This document shows, one piece after another, positions 22,147 through 63,853 of a stretch of DNA of 64,000 nt (position 1 is the stretch's first letter; every line of letters begins with the position of its first letter). The notes under the pieces are model-generated. The model saw only the letters and a list, made by a program, of their open reading frames with translations. It was not told the origin of the DNA and did not search any database. Position numbers and translations under genes: made by a program. Source of the DNA: Arcobacter sp. (GTDB taxonomy: Bacteria > Campylobacterota > Campylobacteria > Campylobacterales > Arcobacteraceae); assembly GCA_020048055.1 (NCBI GenBank), contig JAIFNA010000004.1:1-64000 (forward strand). The letters run 5' to 3'.

Positions 22147-30927
<8,781 letters not shown>

Positions 30928-40347: not shown

Positions 40348-40355
40348 CGATCAAA

Positions 40356-40391
40356 CAATGGTGTAACTAAACTATTTTAGTTACACCATTG
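40356..40391 (+). terminator. 16-bp perfect hairpin terminator after metK
   Basis: CAATGGTGTAACTAAA-CTAT-TTTAGTTACACCATTG, starting 9 bases after the metK stop. The tail (GTTATTTTGG) is only partly T-rich, but stem length and position fit a terminator. Confidence 0.75.
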
Positions 40392-40629
40392 GTTATTTTG
40401 GTGCCAAAATCAATAATTAAACTTTTTGATTTTCTCTAAAATATGCTAATTTTTTTAATGAATTTTTTACATCTTTTCTAAAATAAAATTCTTTTATAAA
40501 AACTTTCAATTTTTTGTTTCTTTTTATTAGCAATAATTTAATTTATACTAAAATCTATCAATAACGATAAACATCTTACAATAGTATTTATCTTAGCATC
40601 CATCATGTCCTGAAATGATTAAGATAGCA
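40392..40629. other. non-coding AT-rich spacer, nothing recognised
   Basis: About 240 bases with stops in all frames. A GATAAA/TTTATC inverted repeat brackets a TACAAT box (40577-40582) that could be an upstream start site for the phytochrome operon. No gene or known RNA recognised. Confidence 0.5.
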
Positions 40630-40658
40630 TTACATTTTAGTTACATTTTAGCTACAAT
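40630..40658 (+). promoter_or_regulatory. three 11-bp-spaced TTACA direct repeats over the -10 box
   Basis: TTACATTTTAG occurs twice in tandem (40630-40640 and 40641-40651) and is followed by CTACAATG, so (T/C)TACA recurs every 11 bp. The third unit overlaps a TACAAT -10 box (40653-40658), 28 bases before the kinase start. Tandem half-sites one helical turn apart are typical of OmpR/PhoB-type response-regulator sites. Confidence 0.6.
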
Positions 40659-40685
40659 GTTTGCAATAAAAAAGTTGGAGAATAA

Positions 40686-41840
40686 ATGGACAAATCAATT
40701 GATAAGACTGATTCTCGTGAATCATTTTATGTTGTATATCAAAATAAAAAAATTTTATTTATTTCAAATGGTTTTTTTAGTCTATTTGATTGTTTTTCAT
40801 CTACGGATGATTTTTTAAAAACTCACCAAGATGTGCAAGAATTGTTTACATTTACAAATCAAACAAGAAAGTTTTACAAGAAACTTGATGATACAAAACT
40901 CTTGTGGTATGAGTCATTTATAGAAAATAAACAAAAAAATAATAGAATAATTTTTGGATACAAAGGAATTGAGTATTACTATAAATTTTTTATCACTCAA
41001 TCATTTTCTGCTTTAGATCAATATGTTATTTATTTTCATTCCATTGACAACGAATTGAAAAAAGAGAAAAAATTAGTACAGTTTTTTTATAAAACACAAA
41101 AAAAGATTAAAAAACTAGAAAAACTCTCCAAACACAAAGATAAGTTAACGCTTATGGGTGAAATAATGGAAAACATTACCCACCAATGGAAACAGCCACT
41201 TACGAATATCCTATTTACTGCTACTGCAATCCAATTTAAAAAATCATTAGATAGACTTAATGATGAAGAGCTTGATAAATCGGTTGAAAATATTATAGAA
41301 TCGGTAAACTATATGTCACAAACTGTTAATGATTTTAAAAGTTTTTTAAATGAAGAGAAACAAAAAAGGGTATTCGAAATAGGTGAGATTATTAACAAAA
41401 TAGAATCAATTATAAAAGGAAATATCACAAGGTTTTCGATAGATTTAGAGATAAATATAGAGAAACAGTTATATGTATTTGGATTTGAAAATGAGCTAAT
41501 TCAATCTATTGTTAATATTATCAATAATGCCACAGATGCACTCAAATCAAAAGATCCAAGAAATAGAAAAATATCAATGACAATTTCACAGACTGATTCA
41601 AAAAGTATTATTACAATAAAGGATAATGGTGGTGGAGTACAAATAGATATTATAGATAAAATCTTTGAACACTATTTTACAACAAAAGGTGAAAATGGTT
41701 CTGGTATTGGGTTACACATTACTAAAGAGATTGTAGAAAATCACTTTAGAGGTGAACTAAAAGTTTACAACACTGAAGTAGGTGCGGTATTTGAAATTAT
41801 ACTACCTTTGTATGAATTTGAAGAGATTACAGAAATATAA
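40686..41840 (+). CDS. soluble sensor histidine kinase
   Basis: This 384-residue kinase has no membrane helix. Residues 1-120 look PAS-like, 125-155 form a coiled coil, and the DHp helix carries the phospho-acceptor His166 in MENITHQWKQPLTNI, a form common in Campylobacterota kinases. The ATPase domain has the N box (NIINNATDAL), G1 (KDNGGGV), F box (IFEHYFTT) and G2 (GENGSGIGL). No response regulator is encoded in the window. It heads the operon with heme oxygenase (18-base gap) and phytochrome, so it may take input from the phytochrome or act with it. GGAG at 40677-40680 sets the start. Confidence 0.92.
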   Translation: MDKSIDKTDSRESFYVVYQNKKILFISNGFFSLFDCFSSTDDFLKTHQDVQELFTFTNQTRKFYKKLDDTKLLWYESFIENKQKNNRIIFGYKGIEYYYKFFITQSFSALDQYVIYFHSIDNELKKEKKLVQFFYKTQKKIKKLEKLSKHKDKLTLMGEIMENITHQWKQPLTNILFTATAIQFKKSLDRLNDEELDKSVENIIESVNYMSQTVNDFKSFLNEEKQKRVFEIGEIINKIESIIKGNITRFSIDLEINIEKQLYVFGFENELIQSIVNIINNATDALKSKDPRNRKISMTISQTDSKSIITIKDNGGGVQIDIIDKIFEHYFTTKGENGSGIGLHITKEIVENHFRGELKVYNTEVGAVFEIILPLYEFEEITEI

Positions 41841-41858
41841 CCAACATAAGGAAAAAAA

Positions 41859-42434
41859 ATGATAGATTTAAAAACAGAAACACAAGACTTACATAGCAAA
41901 GTTGAAGATTGTTATTATCCAAAACAACTTTTTTGTGGCAATATCACACTTGATGAATATGTTACATATTTAAAAATATTTTACAGATTGCATCATTCAA
42001 TAGAGAGTGATTTTAAAAAATTTAAAGATCAATGGATTAAATACGATTTCCCTTACGAAAAATATTATAGACTATCATTGCTACAAAAAGATTTGGCAAA
42101 TCTTTCTTATGTGACAATAGAGAAACCTTCATTGGAAAATTTTTCAATCAACTCATTCCCTGAAGCTATTGGTTTTCTTTATGTTTTAACCGGATCTACG
42201 ATGGGCGGAATGCTACTTGCTGCAAAAGTCGAAAATAATAATGAATTAAATAAATACAAAGCAATTAATAATTATTTTCTTGGTTTTAAAGAAAAAACAT
42301 ATCCAATGTGGGGAGATTTTATCAAGTTCATAAATCTCTATACACAGATAAATCCAGACATTGAGAAAAGTATTATTAAGGGGGCTAGGGATTGCTTTGA
42401 GTTGATTATTAAGGAGATTGATGATGAAAAATAA
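41859..42434 (+). CDS. biliverdin-producing heme oxygenase (BphO-type)
   Basis: This 191-residue enzyme opens heme to biliverdin, CO and iron. The proximal ligand is His12 in KTETQDLHSKVED. The distal helix is FLYVLTGSTMGGMLLAA with the flexible glycines (Gly112, Gly116-117). Length and form match bacterial phytochrome-linked BphO. The stop lies inside the phytochrome start region (TTG-ATG-ATG overlap), so the two are translationally coupled, which strongly implies that its biliverdin is the phytochrome chromophore. The electron donor is not encoded nearby. Confidence 0.93.
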   Translation: MIDLKTETQDLHSKVEDCYYPKQLFCGNITLDEYVTYLKIFYRLHHSIESDFKKFKDQWIKYDFPYEKYYRLSLLQKDLANLSYVTIEKPSLENFSINSFPEAIGFLYVLTGSTMGGMLLAAKVENNNELNKYKAINNYFLGFKEKTYPMWGDFIKFINLYTQINPDIEKSIIKGARDCFELIIKEIDDEK

Positions 42435-44964
42435 ATTTTTGCAATGTGAAGATGAGCCAATCAATATACCAAACTATATTCAACCTATTGGGTACTTCAT
42501 TGCAATTAATCTATCCGATAAAACAATTTCTCACGTAAGTCAAAATGCTCAAGAGGATTTTCCAGAGATTATCTTAGGAGAAGATATTTATGAGTTTATT
42601 GCTGAATTTGATATTTTAAGCAAAAAGTTACAATCTTCTGATGCAAATAGAATATTTTTATATAACCAAGAGATGTCGTTTGGATCAAATAAAAAACATG
42701 AATTTGACTTTATAATTTCATTTTCGACAAATGAAATTCTCCTTATAGAATTTTTAACCATTAAAACTATTGGGAGCTGTTCTAATTTCTGTATAGCAAA
42801 TCTTACAGAGAAGCTATTAAAAGAAACATCAAAAGAGAAAGTATTTGAACTTGCCACAAATTTTATCTCAAAAGAGATTGGATATGATCGGATAATGATT
42901 TACAAATTTGATAAAAACTACAATGGTCAAGTTATTTACGAAACTATACAAGATGGTATGGAATCGTACCTCAATCTTTGTTACCCAGCAAGTGATATTC
43001 CAACTCAGGCAAGAGAGTTGTATCTTAAAAATCATATTCGTGTTATTTCAAATTCAAGCTACATACCTTCTAAGATAATCAGTAAAAATACGAGTCCGAT
43101 CGATTTAACATATAGTTTTTTAAGAAATGTTTCACCTATTCATTTAGAATACATGAGGAATATGGGTGTTGTTGCGTCGATGACAATTTCACTCATTATT
43201 GATGGAAAACTTTGGGGACTCATTGCTTGTCATCATAAAAACAAAATGATACCATCTGTAAAACTGATTAATGAATGTGAATACCTTGGAAAAATTGTAA
43301 GCTCATTGGTTAATTTACATTTGCAAAATCGTCTTTCAAAAGATATAAGTAAATTTATCGGAAAAACTGATATTTTATTAGAGTTTTTTAAAAGCGATAG
43401 TCACTTTAATTTTGAAGAGATTGTCTCTGTAAATTTAGAATATATAAAAAACTTGTTTGATGCGGATGGAATTATATTATCTCATGATGGTTTTTTTAAT
43501 TCTTTTGAGATAAAACTTGATAGTCAAGAAATAGAAAAATTAATCATGACATCTATTTTACTATTAGATGACAAAGAATATTTCTATACAGACTCTCTTA
43601 CAAGATATGATTCTAACCTTCCCGAACACATATTAAAAGAATGTGCTGGTCTTTTGGTTCTAAAACCAATTCCAAATGTAAGTTTTTATATTATTTTAAC
43701 AAGAGAGGAGAAGCAAAGAGAGCTTAATTGGGGTGGTAATCCAAATGAAAAAATAGAAAATGAAACAAAAAAATATCTTTCACCTAGGAACTCATTTGAT
43801 AAATTTATTCAAATAGTGATGCTTACAGCACAAGACTGGGAAGAAAAAATTGAAGAAAAAATCAATATCTTTTTTTCAAAAATACAAAACTACAAAAGCT
43901 CATTTGATGATAAATATTCACTCAATATAAAATCTTTAGAACTTAAAGAACTTCAAGAAGAGAAAGAAAAACACAATGAACAACTTATTGATTTACTACT
44001 AAGAATAATTGAATTAAGAGATGCTTATACAGCTGGTCATACTGTCCGTGTATCACAAATATGTGAACTTATTGCTATTGAGATGGGAATATCTCAAGAG
44101 GAGATTTTATTACTCAATCAGGCTTCAAAATTGCACGATATAGGAAAAGTTATTATCCCAGATTCAGTACTACTTAAACCAGGAAGACTAAACCATAATG
44201 AATACGACATAATTAAATTGCATTTAATTGTTGGATATCAAATGTTAAGTACAATTGATTACTATAAGCCTGTTGCTGAAATTATGAAATATCATCATGA
44301 AAAATATGATGGAAGTGGTTATCCTTATGAGCTCAGTGGGGATCGAATACCACTCTTATCACATATTATGATAGTTGCTGATGCATTTGATGCTATGACT
44401 AGCAACAGAATCTATCAAAAAAGAAAAGATTTCAAACAAGCTATCAATGAACTAAATGCTCATAAAGGCATTTGGTATCATCCTATGGTTGTTGAAGCAA
44501 TTGAGAGAATCACAGATAGGTCACTAATTGAAGTATCGCAGGCAAGTCAAATTCCATTGACCAAAATGGAACATGAACGATTTTCTTATTTTTTTAAAGA
44601 TCAGATGACAGGTTTCTATAATGAACCATATTTGTGGATGATTATAAATAAACAAATTTCACACTATACTGTTACTGACTTCTTTATGATTGAACTTCAT
44701 GGGATGTCTGAATACAACAAAATTAATGGATGGCATGCAGGCAATATTTTAATTAATAATATCTCTGAAATTATTTTAAAAAGATATGATAAAGAGCTAA
44801 TATTTAGGCTCTTTGGTGATGATTTTTTGATTTGTTTCACATCAAGGGAAAATTATGTTGAAAAATCAAAACAGTGGAAAGAGATCAAAATAGGCAATGT
44901 ATATTCATCATCAAAACCTATTACGAAAGGGATGCTTATTGAAGAGTTGCAATCAATGTGGTGA
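42424..44964 (+). CDS. bacteriophytochrome with HD-GYP and degenerate GGDEF output
   Basis: This 846-residue protein is counted from the ATG 7 bases after AAGGAG (42411-42416); ATG 42421 is also possible. PAS (9-123) has the biliverdin-binding Cys8 before EPINIPNYIQP. GAF (136-303) has the PASDIP motif (188-193, Asp191), SPIH (His240) and ACHH (His270). PHY (about 308-500) has the tongue motifs WGGNP (436-440) and PRNSF (454-458). Output is HD-GYP: His571-Asp572 in KLHDIGKVIIPD, HHEKYDGSGYP (GYP 632-634), DAFDAMTSNRIY. The C-terminal GGDEF-like domain (about 725-810) has FGDDF in place of GGDEF. It should be a red/far-red-controlled c-di-GMP phosphodiesterase. Confidence 0.95.
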   Translation: MKNKFLQCEDEPINIPNYIQPIGYFIAINLSDKTISHVSQNAQEDFPEIILGEDIYEFIAEFDILSKKLQSSDANRIFLYNQEMSFGSNKKHEFDFIISFSTNEILLIEFLTIKTIGSCSNFCIANLTEKLLKETSKEKVFELATNFISKEIGYDRIMIYKFDKNYNGQVIYETIQDGMESYLNLCYPASDIPTQARELYLKNHIRVISNSSYIPSKIISKNTSPIDLTYSFLRNVSPIHLEYMRNMGVVASMTISLIIDGKLWGLIACHHKNKMIPSVKLINECEYLGKIVSSLVNLHLQNRLSKDISKFIGKTDILLEFFKSDSHFNFEEIVSVNLEYIKNLFDADGIILSHDGFFNSFEIKLDSQEIEKLIMTSILLLDDKEYFYTDSLTRYDSNLPEHILKECAGLLVLKPIPNVSFYIILTREEKQRELNWGGNPNEKIENETKKYLSPRNSFDKFIQIVMLTAQDWEEKIEEKINIFFSKIQNYKSSFDDKYSLNIKSLELKELQEEKEKHNEQLIDLLLRIIELRDAYTAGHTVRVSQICELIAIEMGISQEEILLLNQASKLHDIGKVIIPDSVLLKPGRLNHNEYDIIKLHLIVGYQMLSTIDYYKPVAEIMKYHHEKYDGSGYPYELSGDRIPLLSHIMIVADAFDAMTSNRIYQKRKDFKQAINELNAHKGIWYHPMVVEAIERITDRSLIEVSQASQIPLTKMEHERFSYFFKDQMTGFYNEPYLWMIINKQISHYTVTDFFMIELHGMSEYNKINGWHAGNILINNISEIILKRYDKELIFRLFGDDFLICFTSRENYVEKSKQWKEIKIGNVYSSSKPITKGMLIEELQSMW

Positions 44965-45021
44965 TTAAAACTATATAGTATTAATAAAAATTTCATAACT
45001 TGTCCTTATCAAATTGAAAAT

Positions 45022-45055
45022 AATTTTGATTTACATACAATGAATCAAAATTTTA
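45022..45055 (+). terminator. terminator candidate of the phytochrome operon
   Basis: AATTTTGATT and AATCAAAATT are perfect 10-bp arms around an 11-base loop, followed by TTATC, 58 bases after the phytochrome stop. The rest of the 290-base gap (44965-45256) holds no recognised gene. Confidence 0.5.
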
Positions 45056-45194
45056 TCTAGGATTCTGTGTTTAATGCAAGACAATAAGTGATCACAATAC
45101 TTGAAGCACAAAAAAATCAATAGCTGACTTAATACTGTTATCATTAGGTTTATAACTCTTAAAATGCGGGATTTTGAATTTATGTATTATTTGA

Positions 45195-45200
45195 TATAAT
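45195..45200 (+). promoter_or_regulatory. -10 box for accD
   Basis: TTGATATAATCTC: a consensus TATAAT 56 bases before the accD ATG. Confidence 0.6.
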
Positions 45201-45256
45201 CTCAAAATTTATGGAAAATATTAAAAATAAAATAGCCAATCAAAGGAATAATAAAA

Positions 45257-63403: not shown

Positions 63404-63853
63404 TCAACCACCACATCCACCGATTGTTACTTTAACAACTTTACTTACAGAGTGTAATTTTCCATCAACATCAGCAATAACTGTAACAGTACCTGTTTTT
63501 TGCATTTTAATTCTAATTGCATAATCAGCTACACTTTTAGCACCCATAGTAAATACTGCAACTGTTGCCTCTGGATTTGCATCTTGGAATACGGCAATTG
63601 TTCTAGCTTTTAGTTTAGTATCAAAACTAATTGGTATAACAGCACCATTCTCAGCAATATCTGGAGCGCTTAAATTAATTCCACCAACAGTAGTAGCAGT
63701 CGTTCCAAACATCTCCTTTATTGCTTCATCAGCTTTTGTTGCTGTCCATACTTTTGGTTTGCTTGCTCTAAAATCTTCTGCACTTAAAGTTGAAGATATC
63801 ATAGATACCGCAGCAACACCAAAACCTAATCCTAAAAAATTTCTTCTATTCAT
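63404..63853 (-). CDS. soxY: SoxY, sulfur-carrier protein
   Basis: This 149-residue periplasmic protein bears sulfur intermediates on a C-terminal cysteine. The sequence ends VTIGGCGG, the exact GGCGG carrier motif. The N-terminus MNRRNFLGLGFGVAAVSM is a Tat signal with twin arginines. It begins 20 bases after soxX. Together with SoxZ it cycles between SoxAX and SoxB. Confidence 0.97.
   Translation of the reverse strand: MNRRNFLGLGFGVAAVSMISSTLSAEDFRASKPKVWTATKADEAIKEMFGTTATTVGGINLSAPDIAENGAVIPISFDTKLKARTIAVFQDANPEATVAVFTMGAKSVADYAIRIKMQKTGTVTVIADVDGKLHSVSKVVKVTIGGCGG

Follow-up and report, generated by a model that had tools for sequence, protein, structure and literature searches.

The locus described here raises the question of whether a non-photosynthetic, sulfur-oxidising member of the Campylobacterota places the breakdown of cyclic di-GMP (c-di-GMP) under the control of red and far-red light. 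It lies within a 64,000-nucleotide stretch of DNA from Arcobacter sp. (the window: positions 1 to 64,000 of the forward strand of contig JAIFNA010000004.1, assembly GCA_020048055.1), where positions 40686-44964 hold genes for a PAS histidine kinase, a heme oxygenase, and a PAS-GAF-PHY phytochrome fused to an HD-GYP domain, with open reading frame coordinates that hold upon re-examination. The analysis indicates that the locus probably encodes a c-di-GMP phosphodiesterase that is switched by red and far-red light, together with the means of supplying its biliverdin, an answer for which the gene content, the residues, the predicted folds, their conservation, the co-occurrence of the genes and the insertion of the cassette are established. 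The features concerned are as follows.

40348-45256 (+): 4.9-kb cassette, lying between metK and accD; metK directly adjoins accD in congeners
40356-40391 (+): terminator-like hairpin with a 16-bp stem, 3' of metK, which sets the cassette apart from metK; from the sequence
40686-41840 (+): soluble histidine kinase with a PAS-like N-terminus, HisKA with an ITHQWKQPL H-box, and HATPase_c; from Pfam and alignment
41859-42434 (+): heme oxygenase, PF01126 (Pfam 9.5e-16)
42424-44964 (+): bacteriophytochrome gene, 846 aa, comprising PAS-GAF-PHY, a long linker helix, HD-GYP and pseudo-GGDEF
42424-43845 (+): PAS-GAF-PHY photosensory module, aa 1-474, with Cys8, PASDIP 188-193, His240, His270, WGG 436-438 and PRNSF 454-458
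43849-44019 (+): signalling helix from PHY to HD-GYP, aa 476-532, one unbroken helix in the predicted model
43993-44484 (+): HD-GYP domain, aa 524-687, with H539, H571, D572, H600, H624, H625, GYP 632-634 and D653
44569-44961 (+): C-terminal pseudo-GGDEF domain, aa ~716-846, with FGDDF 797-801, no RxxD I-site, and a GGDEF fold

The photosensory half of the protein was recognised by Pfam as PAS_2, GAF and PHY, each above cut-off (PHY at 5e-19), and its top sequence matches were phytochrome structures (aa 6-474, E 1.7e-65). In an alignment of 89 phytochromes, across which the key chromophore columns are near-invariant and the Cys8 column holds Cys in 87, the window phytochrome retains Cys8, D155, R156, Y160, D191, P193, Y200, R206, R234, S237, H240, Y243, H270, W436, G438, P454, R455 and S457. 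The full architecture was also found in four more Campylobacterota (UBA6211, M55B150, Sulfurimonas sp. UBA6014 and Sulfuricurvum sp. C5_maxbin.024; 39-45% identical overall), and these orthologues are ~38% identical in the photosensory module, yet retain all of the listed chromophore residues. The original prediction of a biliverdin-type phytochrome is supported, in that Cys8, PASDIP, His240, His270/271, WGGNP and PRNSF were all found within a complete PAS-GAF-PHY module; from these sequence features, the protein is predicted to bind biliverdin and to photoconvert between red and far-red states.

Light-insensitive bacteriophytochromes are known, and a second phytochrome in the same genome, located on contig C1 (L012:2501-5032, minus strand) and organised as PAS-GAF-PHY-PAS-GGDEF with a GCEEF signature, has Asn in place of the DIP Asp, Leu and Lys in place of two conserved Arg, and neither the Cys nor the WGG of the tongue, and is itself probably insensitive to light. 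A redox-sensing bacteriophytochrome is cited in PMC9174799. The window phytochrome could by the same token be a sensor of redox state, heme or temperature, but this is very unlikely, given that the window protein and all its orthologues retain the Cys, the DIP Asp, the two His and the tongue motifs, and that co-occurrence with heme oxygenase is near perfect.

That co-occurrence, and the arrangement of the two genes, bear on how the chromophore would be supplied. The best start for the phytochrome is the ATG at 42424, which is preceded closely by a Shine-Dalgarno sequence (AAGGAG) creates an 11-nt overlap with the end of the heme oxygenase gene, and makes the conserved Cys residue 8; the TTG at 42418, an artefact of the first-start rule of the reading frame lister, was rejected in its favour. 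The heme oxygenase is the sole PF01126 match in its genome. Across 104 genomes of the family, PF01126 is present in four, in all four beside a phytochrome, and in none of the 99 phytochrome-free genomes (Fisher p 1.1e-6, a value that takes genomes as independent). Both the overlap and the co-occurrence uphold the coupling of heme oxygenase to phytochrome that had been proposed, and the co-occurrence favours chromophore supply over iron use. An enzyme of iron acquisition, adjacent to the phytochrome only incidentally, is highly improbable: bacterial heme oxygenases do often serve heme-iron use, and among solved structures this one comes closest to Neisseria HemO and Pseudomonas PA-HO (His12 aligns with the proximal His of both), but the gene occurs in so few family genomes, always beside a phytochrome, and in the window the reading frames overlap.

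The output half of the phytochrome matches the Pfam family HD_5 at 6e-38, and five orthologues show no variation in H539, H571, D572, H600, H624, H625, D653 or the GYP motif. As had been claimed, the HD-GYP residues are intact: all of the metal ligands are present and align with those of the solved domains of PmGH (4mcw) and V-cGAP3. Four residues before the first His, Tyr535 replaces a Glu of PmGH that we take to be part of the third-metal site, which places the protein outside the trinuclear (PmGH) subgroup, leaves its assignment to the family unaffected, and makes a bimetal centre likelier. An AlphaFold model of the output half (predicted local distance difference test, pLDDT, 80) gave an HD-GYP fold with Z-scores of 22.4 to DvhD and 20.8 to PmGH 4mcw, and a full-length model (mean pLDDT 76, the linker partly low) bridges PHY and HD-GYP with a single helix, residues 476-532.

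The C-terminal domain is of a different character, and the earlier description of it as an ordinary GGDEF domain has to be replaced by that of a conserved, degenerate pseudo-domain. The predicted fold of the last ~130 residues is that of GGDEF (Z 10.5-11.6; best match 3mtk, Z 11.6 over 125 residues, root-mean-square deviation 3.8), but its Pfam score is below the cut-off (22.1 versus 23.8 bits), its signature is FGDDF in 5/5 orthologues in place of the GG(D/E)EF of active cyclases, and the RxxD inhibitory site is absent. Synthesis of c-di-GMP by this domain is therefore not expected, and the signature in all five orthologues rules it out as an active diguanylate cyclase; the strictness with which FGDDF is conserved argues for a retained non-catalytic role. 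When a profile of the HD-GYP/pseudo-GGDEF module was searched against the 104 family genomes, proteins bearing the full module scored ~300-380 bits over nearly their full length, versus <180 for ordinary HD-GYP proteins, with one partial match at 233. These relatives (L118-L130, from ~15 family genomes) share the output module, with a signature that is mostly (H/Y/F/Q)GDDF or near it, and differ in their sensors, which by eye are receiver (REC), GAF, solute-binding or transmembrane; this makes the phytochrome one of several sensors mounted on a ready-made module.

The kinase, the gene for which ends 18 nt before the heme oxygenase start (41840 to 41859), offers another possible output. It matches HisKA (7e-8) and HATPase_c (3.6e-17) in Pfam and has the H-box His; its N-terminus is PAS-like by eye only, with no Pfam match. 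The phytochrome might then be mainly a light-controlled partner of this kinase in a two-component system, leaving the HD-GYP and pseudo-GGDEF domains as a subsidiary or regulatory part. In its favour, the window, UBA6211 and M55B150 each have a kinase gene ahead of the phytochrome or of its heme oxygenase gene, a CheB-CheR-kinase lies near the Sulfuricurvum phytochrome, and at several loci of the order CheB/CheR-type genes adjoin phytochromes that consist of a photosensory module alone and must signal in trans. Against this, the UBA6211 and M55B150 kinases have Asp at the phospho-acceptor His (retained in 15 of 17 comparable H-boxes) while keeping their ATPase/ATP-binding motifs, a kinase is missing from the UBA6014 locus, the kinase of the window seems to possess a PAS-like sensor region of its own, and the HD-GYP residues are strictly conserved; kinase partnership as the main function is accordingly unlikely.

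The His-to-Asp changes and the absences also weaken the candidacy of the kinase as a fixed cognate partner. The window kinase is most similar (41%) to the one adjoining the heme oxygenase orthologue of UBA6211, with generic kinases scoring nearly as well. The three-gene order of the proposed operon was seen once more, in UBA6211, where the kinase lacks the H-box His, and nowhere else, so that the heme oxygenase-phytochrome pair appears to form the core and the kinase a variable or optional partner. Two kinases that adjoin HD-GYP phytochromes (L008:4470-5261 and L011:6110-6946), with Asp for His and ATP-binding motifs kept, are possible pseudokinases.

Phytochromes are rare in the phylum, as had been supposed: in three overlapping samples, PHY was found in 5/104 genomes from the family, 3/397 from the phylum and 6/399 from the order. 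A tree unites the phytochrome of the window with those of UBA6211, M55B150 and UBA6014 in one clade (99% support in the Shimodaira-Hasegawa-like approximate likelihood ratio test, SH-aLRT), and that of Sulfuricurvum sits on a long branch of uncertain placement. By eye, the remaining phytochromes of the Campylobacterota carry a kinase or hybrid-kinase output or none, often with CheB/CheR-type genes adjoining. Two photosensory-only examples (L009:7828-9312 and L022:7118-8542; 474-494 aa) stand beside a heme oxygenase and CheB/CheR-type genes, which implies signalling in trans. The PHY-HD-GYP combination was searched for in samples, which do not prove its absence elsewhere: among the loci of 80 named relatives HD-GYP occurred in four, all of Campylobacterota; it was found in 0/35 phytochrome-bearing genomes of other phyla; and no record among 72,556 plasmids covers 80% of the phytochrome query.

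In six of seven congeners, metK and accD are separated by ~110-225 bp (the stretch covered for the seventh ends early and shows no accD), and neither PHY nor heme oxygenase was found in any of the seven. The 4.9-kb cassette either is a clean insertion in the window lineage or has disappeared from every congener sampled, and the phytochrome HD-GYP locus appears to be mobile within the Campylobacterota. The same absence from congeners might suggest assembly contamination or a chimera, for which the chance is negligible: the locus lies inside a 179-kb contig, the flanking genes match their congener counterparts at ~87-94% (metK) and 75-92% (accD) identity, the cassette resembles its neighbours in third-position GC content (GC3; 0.19-0.23 versus 0.16-0.20), the contamination rating of the genome is 0.01%, and the nearest relatives are other Campylobacterota. 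With an empty site in congeners and orthologues in other genera and another family, restriction to one contaminated genome can be set aside. The hairpin after metK suggests a separate promoter for the cassette; a promoter scan gave promoter-like matches at no higher frequency than in shuffled sequence, and an Rfam scan returned tRNAs only. Elsewhere, the window holds rpoB-rpoC (22147-30847, minus strand) and a SoxY gene (63413-63718, minus strand), the latter in agreement with the host having been called a sulfur oxidiser.

The original prediction had also held that light sensing is not expected in such an organism, which is too strong a statement, since bacteriophytochromes are frequent in non-photosynthetic bacteria and the genome holds additional LOV-type genes. 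Beside the second phytochrome lies a gene for a winged-helix-LOV DNA-binding protein with an NCRF motif, full-length homologues of which were found, within the family, in the three genomes that have HD-GYP phytochromes and in no others (p 5e-6), and further at the Sulfuricurvum locus, but not in UBA6014. The loci are as follows.

L012:1728-2450 (-), contig C1: winged-helix-LOV gene of the window genome
L028:1130-1867: winged-helix-LOV gene
L008:3673-4389: winged-helix-LOV gene
L154:12-695: winged-helix-LOV gene

The LOV residues are not uniform (UBA6211 has Leu for Cys, the window genome Tyr for Gln). A LOV histidine kinase with GKNCRFLQ is encoded on contig C5 (L155:2526-3518, plus strand), its LOV start apparently truncated or frameshifted relative to an upstream frame; no BLUF was found in the genome. 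A mobile, two-colour module of the Campylobacterota, in which a phytochrome HD-GYP tuned by its pseudo-GGDEF domain would act jointly with a DNA-binding, blue-light LOV regulator and a kinase turned pseudokinase in some lineages, is a tentative and rather doubtful extension of these observations.

Comparison with known systems places the protein among several of them. IsPadC and TsPadC, the phytochrome-activated diguanylate cyclases, likewise join a PAS-GAF-PHY biliverdin module through a helical linker to c-di-GMP turnover, but end in an active GGDEF cyclase whereas the window protein has an HD-GYP hydrolase and a pseudo-GGDEF. BphG1 of Rhodobacter sphaeroides and XooBphP, with GGDEF/EAL outputs, also bring synthesis or breakdown of c-di-GMP under phytochrome control, but use an EAL phosphodiesterase, to which the HD-GYP domain, placed N-terminal of the GGDEF-like domain, is unrelated. 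Classical BphP kinases with bphO (Agp1/Agp2, DrBphP) share the photosensory module and linked heme oxygenase gene, whereas the window phytochrome has no kinase domain and the kinase is a separate, variable gene. While PmGH, PA4781 (4r8z), DvhD and V-cGAP3 share the HD-GYP fold and metal residues, the window protein differs in its phytochrome sensor and in its Tyr for the Glu of PmGH. Finally, a globin-coupled sensor of Vibrio fluvialis (PMC10882959) similarly joins a tetrapyrrole-binding sensor by a predicted long helix to HD-GYP, but its heme globin senses O2, whereas the biliverdin module of the window protein is predicted to respond to light.

The pairing of a phytochrome sensor with an HD-GYP enzyme was not found described in open-access text. 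In a 2022 review of c-di-GMP (PMC8846402), the photoreceptor table gives phytochrome cyclases and one phytochrome phosphodiesterase (XooBphP), and no HD-GYP; a survey figure of phytochrome effectors in PMC9587094 likewise does not name HD-GYP. No literature linking a phytochrome or bacteriophytochrome with Arcobacter, Sulfuricurvum or Campylobacterales was found in open-access text, which leaves room for an earlier report; matches for Epsilonproteobacteria or Campylobacterota concerned Thiohalomonadales and PYP instead.

The mechanism that we favour, a light-switched phosphodiesterase, would proceed in the following manner: (i) the heme oxygenase would open heme to biliverdin; (ii) the phytochrome would attach biliverdin via Cys8 and photoconvert between Pr and Pfr; (iii) refolding of the PHY tongue would travel along the ~55-residue helix to the HD-GYP domain; and (iv) hydrolysis of c-di-GMP, or of a related cyclic dinucleotide, would be altered by the light state, with the pseudo-GGDEF domain, not a cyclase, most likely an accessory of the HD-GYP domain that senses GTP or a dinucleotide or serves dimerisation. 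The photosensory module would have been fused onto an output module that relatives pair with other sensors; the active light state, the substrate and any role of the kinase are matters of prediction. Several observations weigh against this scheme: M55B150, the fifth phytochrome-bearing genome of the family (84% complete), shows no heme oxygenase; HD-GYP domains can hydrolyse 3'3'-cGAMP as well, and some are inactive; the IX-alpha regiospecificity of the heme oxygenase is not readable from sequence; and the degenerate second phytochrome may signify that light sensing is decaying in the lineage.

If the scheme is true, the locus would be a natural example of HD-GYP, one class of c-di-GMP hydrolase, being switched by red light, and could provide an optogenetic means of light-controlled c-di-GMP removal without an EAL domain. 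For the sulfur-oxidising Campylobacterota, in which no published phytochrome was found, it would imply that biofilm or motility is controlled by red light.

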